Shown: positions 6,764 to 37,039 of the stretch, piece after piece
Position numbering within the stretch: the stretch's first letter is position 1
Layout: every line of letters begins with the position of its first letter
NCBI RefSeq assembly: GCF_000615445.1
Contig: NZ_BALY01000017.1
Coordinates: forward strand, 1 to 38,922
From: Lactobacillus hamsteri DSM 5661 = JCM 6256
Lineage (GTDB): Bacteria > Bacillota > Bacilli > Lactobacillales > Lactobacillaceae
Direction: 5' to 3'
DNA: 38,922 nt
Notes under the pieces: model-generated
Database searches by the model: none
Seen by the model: the letters and a program-made list of their open reading frames with translations, nothing else
Told to the model about the DNA's origin: nothing
Program-made: the position numbers and the translations under genes

Positions 6764-8092
6764 TTAAAATAAAGTATCCCAAGGTTCAACTTTGATAGGC
6801 TTAGTAGCCAACACGTCAAGAACTTCCTTAGGCAAGTATTTCTTATTGGCAACAACTTGGTAACAATACTTTTCAAACCAAGATTGAGTCATACACATAT
6901 ATCCGCCTTCGCCGATACCATCGCCCCAAGAGTTTTCAACCTTCCAGCGATTTGGCTTGCCATTGACTAAGTTAACGCCAGTGATCGCCATACAGTGGGT
7001 TGCGCTGTTTTGCTTAGTGATAAGGCCATCTTTTTTATTCATCTTATAATCGATGCCGATCAATTCTTCTTGGTGGTAAAGCTTGTCATCAAGCCAGCCG
7101 GCCTTGCGTGCATCAGAATCAGTGCCAACATCACAGCCGAACCAAACAATATGACCATCTTTCAATTGATCAATAATTGCCTGTTGAAGATATTTGAAAT
7201 CGACATTAACATATTCAGTTTGGTAGCCACCAGCAACGTTGTCTTGCATTTCATTCCAATAAACATGATTGTATTCATGATCAGGATAATCAACCAATTC
7301 AACGAAGTCATCAAGATTTACGCCAATGAATTTATCAAGCAATTCTTTTGGCGTTACATCTAATTCCTGATGGAAATTGCCTTTATCATCCTTGTATTCC
7401 AAATCGAATTTCTTAGGTGGTTCACCGAATGCCAAAACGCATAGACGATAAATTTCGCTAAGCATTTCTTGACGGCGATTTTCCACTTCTTCAGCTGACT
7501 TGCCATCTTTAATCATTTGACGAAGTTCAATAGCATCTTTTCTTTGCAAACTAGCATTAATTGTGTCGAACTCAGAAGTATTTTTCGTATTAAAAGTATC
7601 TGGCATGACATAGCTTGGCACGACACCGTATTTTTCAATAACGGCTGCGGCATTATCCCATTCACCGCCATCATCCATAGCGTAGCTAAGGTATGCTTGA
7701 ACATGTTGTTCGCCTAATTCTTCGGCAGCGCTGCGCACGATTCTTTGCAAGAAAAGATTGGCTCTGCCTAAACGATCCCAGAAGAAACTGTAATTTTGGG
7801 AAAGTTCGAAATCTTTGACATTATACTTTTTAGCAAATTCTTGGCGCAAAGTATTGAGTGCCGCAAACAACCAACAACGACCACTTCTTCTTTGATTAGT
7901 TGCCTTGCCAGTTGGTACTTCAATTGAAAAGGTCATATTGTTGCGTGCGCTAGAAGCTGGATCTGCGGAACTGGCCAAGAAGCCGTTTTTCGCAATCGTA
8001 CGACCTGCGATAGCAGCCATTTTATCTTGTTTTAATTCTTTTGAAAAACGGTCAAGTAAATCTGACGTTATTTCTTTTCCTTGATTTTTCAT
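6764..8092 (-). CDS. C1B cysteine peptidase, PepE/PepG type
   Basis: 442 aa. Bleomycin-hydrolase family: NQRRSGRCWLFAALN holds the catalytic Cys about residue 73 with the oxyanion Gln six residues before, NSATHCMAITGV holds the His, and VENSWGDG the Asn. No signal peptide, so it acts in the cytosol on peptides taken up by the cell. The C-terminus stops at EPWDTLF, lacking the extra arm (after WDPMG) that in PepC blocks the active site and makes it an aminopeptidase; an endopeptidase or oligopeptidase activity like PepE/PepG is therefore expected. A paralogue lies at 18375-19688. The gene is monocistronic with its own terminator. Confidence 0.85.
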   Translation of the reverse strand: MKNQGKEITSDLLDRFSKELKQDKMAAIAGRTIAKNGFLASSADPASSARNNMTFSIEVPTGKATNQRRSGRCWLFAALNTLRQEFAKKYNVKDFELSQNYSFFWDRLGRANLFLQRIVRSAAEELGEQHVQAYLSYAMDDGGEWDNAAAVIEKYGVVPSYVMPDTFNTKNTSEFDTINASLQRKDAIELRQMIKDGKSAEEVENRRQEMLSEIYRLCVLAFGEPPKKFDLEYKDDKGNFHQELDVTPKELLDKFIGVNLDDFVELVDYPDHEYNHVYWNEMQDNVAGGYQTEYVNVDFKYLQQAIIDQLKDGHIVWFGCDVGTDSDARKAGWLDDKLYHQEELIGIDYKMNKKDGLITKQNSATHCMAITGVNLVNGKPNRWKVENSWGDGIGEGGYMCMTQSWFEKYCYQVVANKKYLPKEVLDVLATKPIKVEPWDTLF

Positions 8093-8130: not shown

Positions 8131-9540
8131 TTAATCTGAAAAGAAATCAGTATATTTAACTACTTTTACATTATGTTCTTGCGCATATTTAGAAAAATTA
8201 TCTGTAACTTCTTTAGTGAAGAAATATAAATAAGATTTTTTAATCTTAGGCAATAAAGTAGCTCTTCTAATCAAAGTATCGACCATTTCATGATTTAATT
8301 TATCCGCGTTTCTCCACTTGCATTCACCAACAATTGCTTCAGAATCATTAAAATTAATTGCCGCAATATCAATTTCTTCTTGTTTCCGTAATGCTGGATT
8401 ATTTCCCCACCAATTTCCAATGGTTTTAGGTTCAAATGGTAAATCATCATTTTGCCACAGCCAGTCTTTGCTAGCTTGTTCAAAAACAGGACCTAAAAAG
8501 CGAGGTAATTCCTCCATAATATTGGCAAGCAATCCCTTCGTTTTTTCAAGCGCAATCTGGTCTTGATATTCAGCGATAAATTTAAACCAGAACTTAAACA
8601 TATTATCTTTGAAAGCATAAATAAATTTGCGCTTATTTTTTTCAAGAATAGGTTGTTTTCTTTCAATAATTTCCAAGTCAATTAAATTATTCAAATATTG
8701 ACTAATGCTGTTGTTATTAGTCATCCCTATAGCTTGGCTTATTTCTGAATTTTTTGTTTTACCATGCGCTAAAGCGTTTAAGATTGAAAAATATGTTGCT
8801 GGCTTTCTTAGTTCTTCTTGCAAAAGAACATTAGGTTCATTCTGTAATGGTGCATTTTGAGTTAAAAATAGTTCTCTGATATTTTCATCAACGCTTAATT
8901 TTTGATCAATAAAACTTAAATACTGTGGAATACCATCCGTGATTCCATAATATGCCATCAAATCATCATCGTTTACATCAGGAAGCATTTTTTTAGTATC
9001 AAAAAGATTAAACGGACGGATTTTAAACTGCCCCGTCTTTCTTCCATAAAGAGGACTCTTATATCCTAAAACCTGATGTTCCATAAACGACATTGACGAA
9101 CCGCAAAGAATCAACATAATATTGTTATTTTCTTTGTATAAATTATCAATCTCAAACTGTAAAATTGAACTTATTGATCGTTCAGATTCCGCAAAATATG
9201 GAAATTCATCCATTACAAAAATCAGCTTTTCATTTTGATTGTCAGCAATGTCTTGAATTTCTTCGAAAGCCTCTTGATAATCATTAAAAGTTCTATTTCT
9301 ATTATTACGATCTGGATTTTCAAAATTCAGAATTGCGTTCGATAAAAAGCGTAAATTTGTTTCTGAAGTTGCCTCAACTCCCTGAACATAGATAGCTGGT
9401 TTATTTTCAATAAATTGCTTAATTAAAGAAGTTTTCCCAACACGTCTGCGTCCATATACAACAGCCATTTCAAATTTGGGACTGTCATACATTTTATTTA
9501 AATTTTTTAATTCAATCTCACGTCCAACGAATTCGTTCAT
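8131..9540 (-). CDS. AAA+ ATPase with winged helix and C-terminal DUF234 nuclease-like domain
   Basis: 469 aa. Walker A GRRRVGKT at residues 30-37, Walker B KLIFVMDE about 105-112, sensor LILCGSSMSF, then a winged helix-turn-helix near residues 265-295 (SEISQAIGM...ISQYLNNLIDLEIIER). The C-terminal DUF234-type domain has GPVFEQASKDWL and a PD-(D/E)XK-like core EEIDIAAIN...AIVGECKW. Shine-Dalgarno AAAGGT before the ATG. Upstream is an array of 15-bp repeats (9552-9617). A close paralogue lies at 35607-37022. Role unknown; families of this kind are often scattered in multiple copies per genome. An autoregulatory or mobile-element-like role is inference. Confidence 0.85.
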   Translation of the reverse strand: MNEFVGREIELKNLNKMYDSPKFEMAVVYGRRRVGKTSLIKQFIENKPAIYVQGVEATSETNLRFLSNAILNFENPDRNNRNRTFNDYQEAFEEIQDIADNQNEKLIFVMDEFPYFAESERSISSILQFEIDNLYKENNNIMLILCGSSMSFMEHQVLGYKSPLYGRKTGQFKIRPFNLFDTKKMLPDVNDDDLMAYYGITDGIPQYLSFIDQKLSVDENIRELFLTQNAPLQNEPNVLLQEELRKPATYFSILNALAHGKTKNSEISQAIGMTNNNSISQYLNNLIDLEIIERKQPILEKNKRKFIYAFKDNMFKFWFKFIAEYQDQIALEKTKGLLANIMEELPRFLGPVFEQASKDWLWQNDDLPFEPKTIGNWWGNNPALRKQEEIDIAAINFNDSEAIVGECKWRNADKLNHEMVDTLIRRATLLPKIKKSYLYFFTKEVTDNFSKYAQEHNVKVVKYTDFFSD

Positions 9541-10479: not shown

Positions 10480-11489
10480 CTAATTAAAATGTAGCACGCT
10501 AGGATCAAATGATTCTGTATCCTTCACTCCTGTATAAAGCATTAATTGCGATAATTCTTCATTCATCTTCTGAAGTTTATCCTCAACGCCCTTTTCACCA
10601 TCATCAAGCAATTCTGGCAAAATCCCACGTCCAATTAAAACCGCGTCGGCGCCTAATGCCAAAGCTTTATACGCATCATAGCCCGACATAAGCGAACCAT
10701 CAACAAAAATTGTCATGTTTGTGCCCTGTAATGCTTTTTCAATATCAGGCAAAACCTTCAAAGGTGGCAGGCCAAATGGAATTCTGCCGTGGTGATGAGA
10801 GACAACAATCGCCTTGCATCCGGCCTTCCAAGCTTCAATGCATCCCTAACCGACAAAACGCCTTTAGCAACAAATGGCAACTTAGTGGAATTTACGTATC
10901 TACGCAAATCTTCCTCAGTAATTGGACCAAGCGGGATCCCGTCAACAACGTCATAATCACCATTCGTGCCAGCAACGTGGTCAATATCAATGCCCACAGC
11001 TACCGCACCATGATCTTCCGCAAATTTAATTTCATCCAAAATCTTTTGATGATCGGCAAAGGGCTTAATGATTCGTACTGTTTCCGCACCTTCGGCAACA
11101 ATTTCCGCGTATTCTTCATCGGTTTCCATACCGATCCAATTTAACACACGCATCTTTTTAGCCGCAGCGGCTTTTTCTTGCATTGGCTTTCTGCTTTTAT
11201 CATCTAAAACTTTATTCAAATGAGAAAGAGCTGCTAAAGTCAATGGTGAAGCATATTTCTTGCCGAAAATCTCAGTAGTCAAATCTGGCTTAACCGCGTC
11301 AATCACGCGCATTTCTACCAAAATATTATCTAAATATGCGCGATTATGGACATTCGCATCATCAGCTTTACCACTCGTCACAGGAATCATTCCCTTAGGA
11401 CCTGGCCATGGACTACTTGGATCTTTTTCTTGCTTCAATTCTTTCATAAAAGACGCACCAGTAACGGCATCTTCTTTGTGTTCACTCAT
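10480..11489 (-). pseudogene. FMN-dependent alpha-hydroxy-acid (lactate) oxidase-like gene, frameshifted
   Basis: The N-terminal ~220 codons (11489 to about 10831) give GPKGMIPVTSGKADD, PLTLAALSH, VAVGIDIDHVAG, LPFVAKGVLS. The rest continues in the next frame: AGCKAIVVSHHHGRIPFG, then FVDGSLMSGYDAYKALALGADAVLIGRG, the FMN-binding end of the glycolate/lactate oxidase family. The shift falls at 10830-10835: a single base is missing where the conserved sequence would read aaggctt (here aagctt). Restored, it would be about 336 aa. Shine-Dalgarno GAAGGG precedes the ATG. The reaction would be lactate or another 2-hydroxy acid plus oxygen to oxo acid. Recent loss or a sequencing error are both possible. 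Confidence 0.8.
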
Positions 11490-14610: not shown

Positions 14611-14659
14611 TTGCTTATTCGAACGTTTGTTTATATACTATTCTTCGAAAATACGTTCG
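14611..14659 (+). promoter_or_regulatory. Promoter with two LexA/DinR-like boxes
   Basis: -35 TTGCTT (14611-14616), 17-bp spacer, -10 TATACT (14634-14639). Box 1 CGAACGTTTGTTTA (14620-14633) fills the spacer; box 2 CGAAAATACGTTCG (14646-14659) covers the predicted start of transcription. Against the Gram-positive SOS box CGAAC-N4-GTTCG, box 1 matches 8 of 10 fixed bases and box 2 matches 9 of 10. The arrangement is that of a LexA-repressed promoter. Confidence 0.6.
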
Positions 14660-14669
14660 GAGGACTAAT

Positions 14670-16304
14670 ATGAGCTTTTTTAATTTCATCACAAATATTC
14701 TTAACAAGACCCAAACACACAATCATCAAGATATCGATGCGCTATTAACTTTTCCCTATCTTCAAAAGAAAGCTATTAGAAAAAACATAATTGATGAGCA
14801 ATGCAATATTGAACGAAAATATGCAATAAAGCATTACATGAACAAATATAGGCATGATAATTCACGACATGAAGCCCTAGCTCCTTTTTATGAAAATAAT
14901 AAGTTGGTTAATTGGATTGGGATTGTTTCGGATATTATTATCGATAATAAGGAAAATCCCCGTATTCTGATTGACAAATTAACTTTAGATAATCCTAAAA
15001 AGCCGCAATTGCTTGATTATCATCTTTGGATTCGCACTAATAAAATTAAATATATTCAGAATGATAGCAATACTCAAACTATTGCAATTGGGGATGCTAT
15101 TCGTGGCATTAGTTCCGTCGATACATATTTAGGAAATCAAAATGAAGTTAAATATGGTTTTAACGCTACAGTAATTCGCGGTGCCGGAATTTTAATTGGT
15201 AATAAAAGGACAAATGCTATACAAACAAATTTAAATGCAAAAATAAAGACAAATTATGATCGAAAAAATGATTGGATTCTAAAATGCACCAACTCTTGCG
15301 AAGCAATAGCTAAATACTCAAAAAGCAATGCTAATGAAATATTGTCTCAGCCCTCTCAAGTTTCTATTTCCTTTCAAAAAAGCAACTATTCTCATTACTA
15401 TAGTCACCTTTCTAAAGAGGACGAAGTTACTTCTACGAAAAAAGAAAATCAAACTGTTATTAGCAATGGCAAATATATCGGAACTGTTAATGCAATAACC
15501 TATATTTCGCGTAAAAATAATAATCTTACTCCGATTATTCGTTTATCTAATATTACCAATGAAAATGGACAAAATATCATTACCAAATCATATTTTAAAT
15601 ATGAAGGGAAAATTCTAGAATTAGGTCAATTAGTCAAAAGTGACAAAATTATATTTTCTACTAAAACAAAATTATCCAACAAAGTAACCGATTTAGGAAC
15701 TATTGAAGATTGTACTTTGAAAAATAAGCAAAATGGCGGACTGCCTATTCCATCTACTAAAGAAGAATTGCTAGGATACATAATGGCTGAAAAAGACGAT
15801 ACTAAACCTAATCATCTTTATTATCGGCAAAAATATCAGGATTGGCTTATCAGCAACAAATTGGAGGCCAGCAATAATTTAATTAGCAAAGATGGGATCC
15901 AACAAATTTTACAAATTAAAAAAAGCGTCCTGAATCAACGTATGCAAAAATCATTCATTATTCCTAAACAACGTAAAAACAATAAAGACTTTTATGATTT
16001 TTCCGTTATTCAAAAAATTGCAGAAGAAAAAGAACCTATTGCAGAAGCAACAGATTCTCTTAAAACGTTAACAGGGCAAAATTTAAATACAATCACAACA
16101 TATGATGGAATCTACTATACTCGTAATTTTGCTAATCTCGATTCATACCTAATAAGAAATGAAATTGAGCGTCTTTCACGAGTATGCGCTAATTTATATA
16201 TTAAGGCCAAAGATGAAAATGGTAATGAAAAATATGTATTAGTAAAAACAATTACGCAGGCTAAAAGCTACAATGATGAAAAAATGCTGATGATTGATAA
16301 TTAG
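14670..16304 (+). CDS. Unknown 544-aa protein with two OB-like modules, probably SOS-induced
   Basis: ATG 5 nt after GGAGGA. The protein is Lys/Asn-rich, soluble, with no signal peptide. I see two similar blocks: residues about 80-175 (WIGIVSDIIID...RILIDKLTL...IAIGDAIRGIS) and about 268-335 (YIGTVNAITYIS...PIIRLSNIT...GQLVKSDKIIFSTKT). The alternation of strands with a G-x-V start and a late GD/K turn suggests OB folds, as in single-strand DNA or RNA binders; this is inference. The N-terminus (1-75) is helical and basic and the C-terminus (from about 355) is helical, with KxKENQ-type repeats absent. I recognise no family. The LexA-like promoter upstream suggests induction by DNA damage. It is transcribed toward brnQ with only 16 bp between the stops. 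Confidence 0.7.
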   Translation: MSFFNFITNILNKTQTHNHQDIDALLTFPYLQKKAIRKNIIDEQCNIERKYAIKHYMNKYRHDNSRHEALAPFYENNKLVNWIGIVSDIIIDNKENPRILIDKLTLDNPKKPQLLDYHLWIRTNKIKYIQNDSNTQTIAIGDAIRGISSVDTYLGNQNEVKYGFNATVIRGAGILIGNKRTNAIQTNLNAKIKTNYDRKNDWILKCTNSCEAIAKYSKSNANEILSQPSQVSISFQKSNYSHYYSHLSKEDEVTSTKKENQTVISNGKYIGTVNAITYISRKNNNLTPIIRLSNITNENGQNIITKSYFKYEGKILELGQLVKSDKIIFSTKTKLSNKVTDLGTIEDCTLKNKQNGGLPIPSTKEELLGYIMAEKDDTKPNHLYYRQKYQDWLISNKLEASNNLISKDGIQQILQIKKSVLNQRMQKSFIIPKQRKNNKDFYDFSVIQKIAEEKEPIAEATDSLKTLTGQNLNTITTYDGIYYTRNFANLDSYLIRNEIERLSRVCANLYIKAKDENGNEKYVLVKTITQAKSYNDEKMLMIDN

Positions 16305-18374: not shown

Positions 18375-19688
18375 TTAACCAATATTATCCCAAGGCTTAA
18401 GGTCAATGGCTGGACCTTCCGCAATCTCGACTTGCTCCTTAGTCAAATATTTTTTATTTACAACTACATCGTAGACATAGTCTTCAAACCATTGCGGACT
18501 CATAATATAAAAACCTTTATTGCCATATTTATCGCCCCAGGAATTTTCAACTTTCCATTTGCGGATCTGTCCTTTATCTTCATCAACACCAACTAGAGTC
18601 ATATCATGAGTGGCATATCCTTCGCCAGTAGCAAGACGATCTGCCTTGCTCATTTGCGTATCAACGCTAAACAAATCGTCGGTCTTGTAAAGTTCACTAT
18701 CAAGATAACCAGTTTTGCGTTCCATTTGCTTCAAAACATCATTGCCAAAAATAACGGCTTGACCATCCTTAAGTTGTGCCATCGCAGCTTGTTCCAAATA
18801 TTCAATAGGCACATTCAACATAGTGATAGGATCGCCACCAGCAACATTATCATACAAAGCTTGGTGATATAACTTATTGTATTCAAAATTAGGACTGTTT
18901 GACAAAACAACATAATCATCAAATTTAAAGTCGCCAAGATATTTTTCCGCAAATTGATGTGGAGTCAAATCCTTTTCTAAATGATATTTTTTATCATCAT
19001 CACGATATTCCAAGTCAAATTTCTTTGGTGGTTCGCCTAAAGCCACAGCAGCAATACGATAAACTTCATTTAAGAATTGTTTCTTAGTTTTTTCAAGTTC
19101 ATCAGTTTTTCCTGCATTAGCTAGCCTACGCAATACTAAGGCATCTTTTCTTTCCTTACGAGCCAAAGAATCGATTAAGCCAGTCGTATTGTTGGAGTTG
19201 AAACTTTCAGGCATTGCATATGAAGGAACAACACCATATTTTCTAACCAAATTGATCGCCATTCCCCAAAGACCGCCATCTTGACCAGCAAATTCAAGCC
19301 AAGATTGGACCTCACGATCATCAAGTGGCTTATCAGCTAGACGGATCATTGCATCATAAAAAGCATTGGCACGCTCAATCTTATCCCAGAAAAAGTTGTA
19401 AGCTTGAGAGAAAGTAAAATCCTTCACCTTGTACTTCTTGCCAAAATAATGGCGTAAAACGTTTAAACTTGAAAATTCCCAGCAACGACCGGAATGCTTT
19501 TGGTCAGTTACGCCACCAATATCAAGTTCAGTTGAGAAAACTTGATTCAATCTTTCCGAAACATGATCATTAAATGATGCTTCAAGAAGACCGCTACGAC
19601 GTGCGGCACGAGAAGCAACTTGATTTTTATCATTTTTATTGAAATCGGCAGAAAATTCTGCGATTTCTTGCTCTGATAATATACTCAT
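18375..19688 (-). CDS. C1B cysteine peptidase, PepE/PepG type (second copy)
   Basis: 437 aa from the ATG at 19688 (AGAGGT upstream); an in-frame ATG at 19709 lacks a ribosome site. Catalytic Cys in DQKHSGRCWEFSSLN (about residue 68), His in YATHDMTLVGV, Asn in VENSWGDKYG. Cys+2 is Glu where relatives usually have Leu or Met, and the residue after the His is Asp rather than Ala or Cys, so substrate preference may differ. It ends KPWDNIG, without the C-terminal arm of PepC aminopeptidases; an oligopeptidase/endopeptidase role is expected. Length matches PepE/PepG (437-438 aa). Paralogue of the gene at 6764. Confidence 0.87.
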   Translation of the reverse strand: MSILSEQEIAEFSADFNKNDKNQVASRAARRSGLLEASFNDHVSERLNQVFSTELDIGGVTDQKHSGRCWEFSSLNVLRHYFGKKYKVKDFTFSQAYNFFWDKIERANAFYDAMIRLADKPLDDREVQSWLEFAGQDGGLWGMAINLVRKYGVVPSYAMPESFNSNNTTGLIDSLARKERKDALVLRRLANAGKTDELEKTKKQFLNEVYRIAAVALGEPPKKFDLEYRDDDKKYHLEKDLTPHQFAEKYLGDFKFDDYVVLSNSPNFEYNKLYHQALYDNVAGGDPITMLNVPIEYLEQAAMAQLKDGQAVIFGNDVLKQMERKTGYLDSELYKTDDLFSVDTQMSKADRLATGEGYATHDMTLVGVDEDKGQIRKWKVENSWGDKYGNKGFYIMSPQWFEDYVYDVVVNKKYLTKEQVEIAEGPAIDLKPWDNIG

Positions 19689-19758
19689 ATTAAAACCTCT
19701 ATTTATCATTTTAATTTTTTGTTAATTTAAATAATACCGTAACTTGGCTAAAAATAAA

Positions 19759-35606: not shown

Positions 35607-37022
35607 TCAATCAAAAAAATCACCATATGAAATTACTCGCACATTTTGCTTCTTTGCTCGTTCTTTAAAATCATTATTATCCTTTTTCACAAAGAAATAC
35701 AAATACTTATTTTTAATAGTATTCTTTTCACCAAATAATTCTGCTCTATTACGTAAAGTAGTTAACATCTCTCGACTCAATTTATCTGAATTGCGCCATT
35801 TACATTCGCCAACTATAGCTTCAGAATTATCAAAATTTACGGCAACAATATCAATCTCATCTTGGCGTTTTAAAACAGGATTATATCCCCACCAACTTTT
35901 GATGCTTCGTGGTTCAAAAGGTAATTCACTTTGCTTCCAAAGCCAGTCCATACTAGCTTGTTCAAAAATGGGGCCTAAAAAGCGAGGTAATTCTTTCATA
36001 ATTGCTTCAAGTACGCCATTCGTTCTCCCTAAAGCAATTTGATCCTGCTCTCCAGAAATAAATTTAAACCAGAATTTAAACATATTATCTTTAATAGCAT
36101 AAATTCCATTTTTAGAATTGGTATCAAGAATTGGCGATTTTCGTTCAATTATTTCCAACTCCATTAATTTATTTAAATATGGACTAAGCTGTGAACTACT
36201 CTTTAAACCTATTGCTTGATAAATTTTATTAACCTTAGTTTTGCCATTAGCAATTGCAACTAAAATTGAATAATATGTGGCCGGCTTGCGCAACTCTTCT
36301 TGAAGTAAAATATTTGTCTCATTTTGTAAGGGTGCATTTTGTTTCAAAAATAATTTATTAATATTTTCTGAAACCGTAATTCTTTGATCAATAAATGTCA
36401 AATATTGCGGAACTCCACCAGTAATACCGTAATATGCCAACAAATCCTCATTATCGATATCTGGAAGCATTTTCTTTGTATCAAAAATATTAAATGGTCG
36501 AATTTTAAATTGGCCTGTCCTTCTGCCATATAAAGGACTTTTTATTCCTAATACTTGATGTTCCATAAAAGACATCGAAGATCCACAAAGAATAAGCATA
36601 ACATTATTGTATTCTTTATAAATATGATCTATTGTGTACTGCAATATAGAACTAACTTCAGGTGCAGATTCAGCAAAATATGGAAATTCATCAAGCACAA
36701 AAACTAATTTTTCTTTTTGATTATTCGCAATATTTTCTACTTCAGTAAAAGCATCCCGAAAATCATTAAAAGAAAAATGTGTATTTATTCTACCCGGATT
36801 TTCAAAATCCATAATTGCATCGGATAAATATTGTAAATTTAATTCTTTTGTAGCCTCAATTCCTTGAATATAAATAGAAGGTTTATTTTTAATAAATTCT
36901 TTAATTAAAGATGTTTTACCTACTCTGCGTCTTCCGTAAACAACTGCCATCTCGAAGTTAGGACTTTGATACATCTCATTCAAGTTGGTAAGTTCAGTTT
37001 CTCTAGCGACAAATTTTTTCAT
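35607..37022 (-). CDS. AAA+ ATPase with DUF234 nuclease-like domain (second copy)
   Basis: 471 aa from the ATG at 37022, preceded by AGGTGG. Same architecture and high similarity to the gene at 8131-9540: GRRRVGKTSLI (Walker A, residues about 29-39), LVFVLDEFPYF (Walker B), LILCGSSMSFMEHQVLGIKSPLYG, winged helix NKIYQAIGLKSSSQLSPYLNKL, and C-terminal PRFLGPIFEQASMDWL, DEIDIVAVNF, AIVGECKWRN (D...ExK). It ends 25 bp before the first palindrome arm of the MITE-like element. Its promoter region holds 15-bp repeats related to those of the first copy. Confidence 0.85.
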   Translation of the reverse strand: MKKFVARETELTNLNEMYQSPNFEMAVVYGRRRVGKTSLIKEFIKNKPSIYIQGIEATKELNLQYLSDAIMDFENPGRINTHFSFNDFRDAFTEVENIANNQKEKLVFVLDEFPYFAESAPEVSSILQYTIDHIYKEYNNVMLILCGSSMSFMEHQVLGIKSPLYGRRTGQFKIRPFNIFDTKKMLPDIDNEDLLAYYGITGGVPQYLTFIDQRITVSENINKLFLKQNAPLQNETNILLQEELRKPATYYSILVAIANGKTKVNKIYQAIGLKSSSQLSPYLNKLMELEIIERKSPILDTNSKNGIYAIKDNMFKFWFKFISGEQDQIALGRTNGVLEAIMKELPRFLGPIFEQASMDWLWKQSELPFEPRSIKSWWGYNPVLKRQDEIDIVAVNFDNSEAIVGECKWRNSDKLSREMLTTLRNRAELFGEKNTIKNKYLYFFVKKDNNDFKERAKKQNVRVISYGDFFD

Positions 37023-37039
37023 ATCGTCCACCTAATATA

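Follow-up and report, generated by a model that had tools for sequence, protein, structure and literature searches.

How is a Lactobacillus gene for a 544-aa protein without a recognizable family controlled, and what might its product do? The gene (14670..16304, plus strand) is an open reading frame with an ATG at position 14670 of the window, i.e., of the whole stretch of 38,922 nucleotides analyzed here, and its relatives, an alignment and a tree place the product in an undescribed Lactobacillus family. We consider it fairly probable that this is a chromosomal SOS gene repressed by LexA, with a multi-module, probably DNA-binding product from a family shared with megaplasmids and mobile elements. 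The SOS regulon of lactobacilli seems to be little described, and among the open-licence papers listed by literature searches, none appears from its title and the first part of its abstract to be a LexA-regulon study of a Lactobacillus.

Two LexA-type boxes in the promoter region

An earlier note on this DNA had proposed a promoter made up of TTGCTT, 17 bp and TATACT, which was confirmed by direct reading of window positions 14611-14639. A -35-like hexamer TTGCTT (14611..14616, plus strand), which agrees with TTGACA at three of six positions, is followed by a spacer of 17 nt and the -10 hexamer TATACT (14634..14639, plus strand). This promoter was absent from the 14 promoter-like sites returned by a consensus scan, for which shuffled sequences gave a mean of 12.4. 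Since the -35 hexamer is poor and the scan did not return the site, the hexamers are weak by themselves and the promoter alone is unremarkable, which does not hold for the box that it contains.

This LexA box 1, CGAACGTTTGTTTA (14620..14633, no strand assigned), was identified from the sequence, by comparison with lexA boxes, by its matrix score and by a genome-wide pattern count. It occupies the 14 spacer positions that adjoin the -10 hexamer and agrees at eight of ten positions with CGAAC-N4-GTTCG, the LexA operator given for B. subtilis and S. aureus in Table 1 of PMC9578287. Its 12-nt core, GAACGTTTGTTT, is identical to the core of the lexA box at five lexA loci (L056, L071, L074, L076 and L082). 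A weaker LexA-like box 2, CGAAAATACGTTCG (14646..14659, no strand assigned), recognized from the sequence, the pattern count and the matrix score, lies over the expected transcription start. It agrees with the operator at nine of ten positions, is separated from the -10 hexamer by 6 nt (it starts 7 nt past the end of the hexamer), and shares its final base with the first base of GGAGG; the starts of the two boxes are spaced 26 nt apart. The earlier note's SOS-like box in the spacer and second box over the predicted start are both found at these positions.

LexA-type sites in the host genome and the genus

The host genome encodes its own LexA, and lexA is present in 67 of 75 genomes of the genus (E 1e-50). 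Of the 30 lexA loci fetched from these 67 genomes, 29 have AGAAC-N4-GTTTG at a distance of 62-87 nt upstream of the start. Boxes with up to two mismatches were found at 26 of 31 recA loci fetched from the 70 of 75 genomes with recA; the remaining five comprise two boxes with three mismatches, two loci without a box and one in which the start was not found. The earlier note had asked for a motif search with the genome's own lexA box as a check. This search was run, and the host lexA box, AGAACGCCTGTTTG, is of the same kind as CGAAC-N4-GTTCG; lexA, recA and pcrA of the host (the last named by eye) all carry boxes of the kind of box 1. As a separate observation, the two recA loci without a box (L084 in G034 and L085 in G009) belong to genomes that also lack a lexA match at E 1e-50, a possible joint loss of lexA and the recA box, yet G021 and G008 likewise lack a lexA match at this threshold and have a box at their recA loci (L096 and L107).

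A symmetric scoring matrix was derived from 23 distinct lexA, recA and pcrA sites, which score 12.9-19.0 bits and were chosen for their likeness to the consensus (two mismatches at most). Left out were the lexA site of L080, the recA sites of L106 and L112, which have three mismatches, two recA loci in which there is no box (L084 and L085), and L100, where the start motif was not located. With 15.6 bits, box 1 falls within the training range though outside the training set; three sites that score as high were found in 2 Mb of Markov sequence. For box 2 the score is 11.9 bits, a level reached by 65 sites per 2 Mb of Markov sequence. This score is low because box 2 breaks one core base. Each orthologue box described below likewise breaks one core base, and the bases in question are kept by all 23 training sites; the omitted lexA site of L080 breaks the core as well. 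The matrix background from the own genome (86,251 positions) consists in part of loci fetched for having boxes, so that the random-sequence counts alone are usable.

The genus LexA consensus, WRAACRNNNGTTYG, matches the 1.83-Mb genome at 17 places, box 1 and the sites of lexA, recA and pcrA among them, and a reversed control pattern matches at 26. Eleven of the 17 sites lie 24-71 nt before a plausible start, namely those of lexA, recA, pcrA, six tnpB copies, an Abi_2 gene and the 544-aa gene; some of these overlap short unassigned ORFs, and for two tnpB copies (L157 and L163), where the ORF caller took an earlier start, the box position was taken from the alignment. The other six sites lie within longer ORFs or near none, and one of them is also found 26 nt before a start. 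As the consensus is no commoner than its control, it is the placement of these 17 sites, not their number, that may be informative. For box 2, which is one of nine places in the genome with at most one mismatch to CGAAC-N4-GTTCG, the reversed control gave 52.

Several LexA-type sites, in this genome and elsewhere, deserve mention in their own right. The six host tnpB copies (L152, L154, L157, L159, L163 and L165), of the IS605 OrfB/TnpB type according to a Pfam run on L165, carry TGAAC-N4-GTTTG directly upstream of the -10 hexamer. The arms and about 15 nt before them are nearly or wholly unchanged and the N4 is variable, with five forms recorded (ATGC, ACAT, ATAC, GTAT and, twice, ATAT). Copies of tnpB in four other genomes (G026, G005, G013 and G072) keep TRAAC-N4-GTTTG, and a LexA-type palindrome upstream of the -10 hexamer was seen at the tnpB copies L186, L187, L188, L189, L203 and L211 of other genomes; more distant tnpB-like promoters (e.g., L190-L194) have no box in the stretch printed. 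Invariant arms around a varying N4 are the pattern that would be expected of selection for LexA binding, and this suggests that the RNA-guided nuclease gene tnpB may be under SOS control. Transposition of ISDra2 is stimulated by radiation and TnpB is dispensable for it (PMC2806898); passages of that article contain no LexA box at tnpB.

The Abi_2-type abortive-infection gene of the host genome (Pfam; ORF 1541-2452 of L160) has AAAACATAAGTTTG at 1501-1514, 27 nt before its start. Likewise, a phage-integrase-family gene (Pfam; ORF 1545-2648 of L033) has CGATCAAATGTTCG at 1501-1514, about 30 nt before its start, with a score of 11.7 bits. A 71-aa, probably membrane-spanning protein of L. kitasatonis (ORF 11505-11720 of L049) lies behind TTGAACATTTGTTTGATATAAT at 11442-11455, and the box-promoter stretch matches again in L197 (G060) and L208 (G013); the protein is a candidate for a small SOS-induced protein.

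Conservation of the box among relatives

Conserved boxes upstream of homologues were a further check proposed by the earlier note, and the outcome was divided. The matrix was applied to 32 upstream stretches, from which L026, L029 and L032 (fragments or duplicates) and P0002-P0005 (the four closest database relatives) were omitted; L009/L144, L013/L146 and L027/L149 represent the same or nearly the same locus twice, L023 offered 189 nt only, and L025, L027, L028, L031 and L147-L149 hold a single module. More than 11 bits were reached in three of the 32 stretches, that of the 544-aa gene included, and the next best score was 8.0. The other two are those of L006 (CGAATACATGTTCG, 11.1 bits) and L007 (CGAATACACGTTCG, 12.3 bits), with one modest box each. 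These boxes end 1 nt before TATAAT and box 1 ends flush with TATACT, i.e., in the same register relative to the -10 hexamer. The L006 and L007 proteins are about 30% identical to the 544-aa protein and 94% identical to each other and, since they are near-copies, their boxes count as one independent observation. On the negative side, the matrix scan found no box upstream of L008, a truncated orthologue of the same clade with an ORF ending near a contig end, nor upstream of L025, a long branch of unsure place in the tree, nor upstream of any of the 17 sequences that represent the sister clade in the tree.

The tree was calculated from residues 20-208 with 25 rows, in which L007 stood for the L006/L007 pair (alignments A1 and A2 were made without L006). 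In this tree, one supported clade (99/96) holds both the 544-aa protein and L007, each in a moderately supported sub-branch of its own (89/87 and 85/91). A single origin of the box does not follow from the tree, which requires two changes, equal to shuffled labels. The reading that we prefer is that the box was probably present at the base of the clade that holds the 544-aa protein and L007. It was also observed that codon 5 of L006 is an in-frame stop (1484-1498) where its near-copy L007 is open; L006 may be a decaying copy or may start downstream, and the stop implies that the gene may be dispensable.

The alternative that the boxes arose by chance, i.e., that this is an ordinary accessory gene with box-like promoter sequences of which LexA makes no use, would fit the 29 of 32 scanned upstream stretches without a box and the consensus count, which does not exceed that of its control. 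However, box 1 scores alongside the sites of lexA and recA, a second box follows 26 nt on, and the register to the -10 hexamer is kept in distant orthologues. In view of the matrix score, the placement in the genome and the orthologue register, chance is not favored as the explanation of box 1, and we regard this alternative as decidedly unlikely. LexA control of the 544-aa gene is, by contrast, likely on the evidence of these sites and would be specific to a sub-lineage. Of the earlier note's proposal of damage induction through LexA, the control is well supported by the sequence, and the generality is limited by the boxes missing in the truncated orthologue and outside the clade.

Modular architecture of the protein

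The 544-aa protein matches no Pfam, NCBIfam or PHROG family, in agreement with the earlier note, which could not assign it. By alignment, it consists of an N-terminal stretch, a conserved module A (residues ~76-208; 14895..15293, plus strand), a conserved module B recognized by profile matches (residues ~262-400; 15453..15869, plus strand), a winged-helix/MerR-like region assigned by alignment to relatives (residues ~402-452; 15873..16025, plus strand), a variable linker and a conserved C-terminal domain (residues ~478-544; 16101..16301, plus strand). Most invariant columns of the alignment lie in module A and fewer in the helix region.

Modules A and B correspond to the first and the second of the two OB-like blocks of the earlier note. 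No OB family is supported by sequence profiles for the protein family in Pfam or PDB; the module B pattern 'L..L..GD.I.F.AR' is one that we take to be OB-like. Module A occurs without module B in proteins of 312-355 aa (L025 and L147), and module B is a stand-alone protein in other Lactobacillaceae, sometimes on plasmids. Profile comparison of module B with the stand-alone family A3 gave an E value of 4e-15, for which it should be considered that some A3 members had been found with the family profile itself. Module A and the stand-alone module B proteins have an H-x-W motif in common; an internal duplication as the source of modules A and B was rejected, as the profile comparison was not significant.

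For the winged-helix-like region, L009 exceeds the Pfam MerR_1 cut-off (27.3 vs 21.6 bits) as the only one of nine relatives scanned singly, and a helix-turn-helix profile matches three of 25 relatives at E <= 1; the 544-aa protein itself has no Pfam match. The family profile weakly resembles AdcR (3tgn_A) and other winged-helix PDB chains (best E value 0.014). Together with the plasmid neighborhoods of some relatives, this region is the reason for considering DNA binding by the product, and nucleic-acid binding is plausible on these grounds.

A winged helix could also mean that the protein is an SOS-controlled second-tier transcription regulator, with the helix on a specific operator and the two modules sensing a ligand or partner. 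The occurrence of the region in relatives, in some long-clade members apparently as two in tandem, would suit such a regulator. Against this, the proteins measure 544-800 aa, the invariant columns concentrate outside the helix region, and both modules are found without it, so that a regulator appears unlikely to us.

Distribution and genomic context of the family

Among 8000 candidates scored in a protein database, four other relatives were found. Matches are present in 25 of 75 genomes of the genus, the own genome included, three of them in module B or the helix region only, and in 33 of 397 sampled Lactobacillaceae genomes with at most three candidates scored per genome. In this sample, matches that extend beyond module B and the helix region into module A are confined to Lactobacillus; those in other genera cover module B or the region behind it, and nine of 40 genera, counting Lactobacillus, have a match. 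A scan of named genomes returned no match with the single protein and nine loci, all of the sister clade, with the alignment. The family is undescribed and diverges fast. Its relatives are under purifying selection, with dN/dS values of 0.05-0.26 in the six pairs, out of seven, that allowed the calculation; synonymous sites are saturated in two pairs, and L006/L007 (0.26) is the sole pair from the clade of the 544-aa gene.

On both sides, the 544-aa gene is flanked by genes of the opposite strand that resemble normal chromosomal ones. One flank encodes a flavocytochrome c and an enzyme like fumarate hydratase, for which fumC_II was the best model without reaching its cut-off; the other encodes a carrier for branched-chain amino acids. 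The gene was beside fumC in none of 15 other Lactobacillus fumC loci read, which marks it as an accessory gene at this position. A recent island in the window was rejected, as no long flanking repeat was found, and so was a phage origin, as the full protein has no match in 50,697 phage records or in viral contigs. A stand-alone module B protein (L148) matches a single 'Bacteriophage sp.' record, an unannotated one of 5.7 kb, at 39% identity over 59%, and module B is therefore not strictly absent from viruses. Elsewhere in the window, two paralogue pairs were noted by eye: C1-type aminopeptidases (6764-8092 and 18375-19709) and ATPases with the P-loop GRRRVGKTSLIK (8131-9540 and 35607-37031).

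Some relatives, for example those in L. gallinarum, L. kitasatonis and L. ultunensis, look chromosomal by their neighbors, and others are carried by megaplasmids. On pWW1 of L. kefiranofaciens and pLc83 of L. crispatus, the relative and a divergent ssb have one small gene between them; on p2 of L. crispatus, ssb lies ~6.5 kb away with transposase genes between; and in the L. intestinalis megaplasmid, parA and a small gene precede the relative, and a replication initiator in divergent orientation lies beyond. Stand-alone module B copies were found, for example, on a plasmid of L. helsingborgensis, where a Rep3-type replication initiator lies immediately upstream, and, by eye, near integrase-like genes in L126 and L132.

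The patchy distribution and fast divergence would also be compatible with an anti-mobile-element or suicide effector, released once DNA damage or invading DNA triggers SOS, as would the like boxes at the Abi_2 gene and the tnpB copies of the host genome. However, PADLOC has no match for the 544-aa protein, no catalytic motif was recognized, and some relatives reside near ssb or parA on megaplasmids. Eleven of 25 relatives match just a 60-position mad1 model, and in all four matching relatives among eight scanned singly the mad1 stretch falls in the helix-turn-helix region. Assignment to a defence family was rejected, since the mad1 match comprises the helix-turn-helix only and no PADLOC model was matched beyond it. 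We regard an effector as the least probable of the alternatives considered.

Proposed role

LexA cleaves itself once RecA has formed filaments on single-stranded DNA, and from this established behavior and the boxes we infer that LexA would block the gene until RecA-triggered cleavage. In the undamaged cell, LexA would occupy box 1 and perhaps box 2, and RNA polymerase would be blocked. Upon damage, RecA filaments on single-stranded DNA would trigger self-cleavage of LexA and the 544-aa gene would be expressed. Its product would then most likely bind DNA, either at replication sites that are damaged or stalled or on an element replicating under stress. As our guess at its exact job, we favor the first of these, with the protein handling the DNA there.

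A more specific version, which we put forward as a rather speculative possibility, is that a single-stranded DNA-binding system of a plasmid backbone was taken over by the chromosome and wired into SOS. The two modules would then be new OB-like modules and, together with the winged helix, would form a lineage-specific accessory to replication or repair. If LexA control of the 544-aa gene is real, a lineage-specific SOS target would have come from a family shared with megaplasmids, tying genes of mobile elements into the damage response.

Relation to known systems

Similarity to OB-fold single-stranded DNA-binding proteins is suggested by two plasmid relatives that lie one gene from ssb and by the presumably OB-like pattern of module B, but no sequence-family match to them exists for the family of the 544-aa protein. 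MerR-type and winged-helix domains (MerR_1; AdcR, 3tgn_A) are weakly resembled by one region of the family profile; unlike such proteins, one of nine singly scanned relatives passes the Pfam cut-off and the 544-aa protein has no match. Homologous, uncharacterized proteins are encoded on megaplasmids of L. crispatus, L. kefiranofaciens and L. intestinalis; they align with 66-93% of the query, with an identity of 27-32%, and are annotated as 'hypothetical' or, in one case, as 'molybdenum ABC transporter ATP-binding protein'. In contrast to the 544-aa gene, their genes are plasmid-borne, near ssb or behind parA, and without a LexA box. With respect to the Bacillota LexA regulon, the locus differs in that the target is no known SOS gene and that no box was found in the sister clade, but it corresponds to this regulon in the type of operator, its position in the promoter and the kind of boxes at lexA, recA and pcrA of the host.
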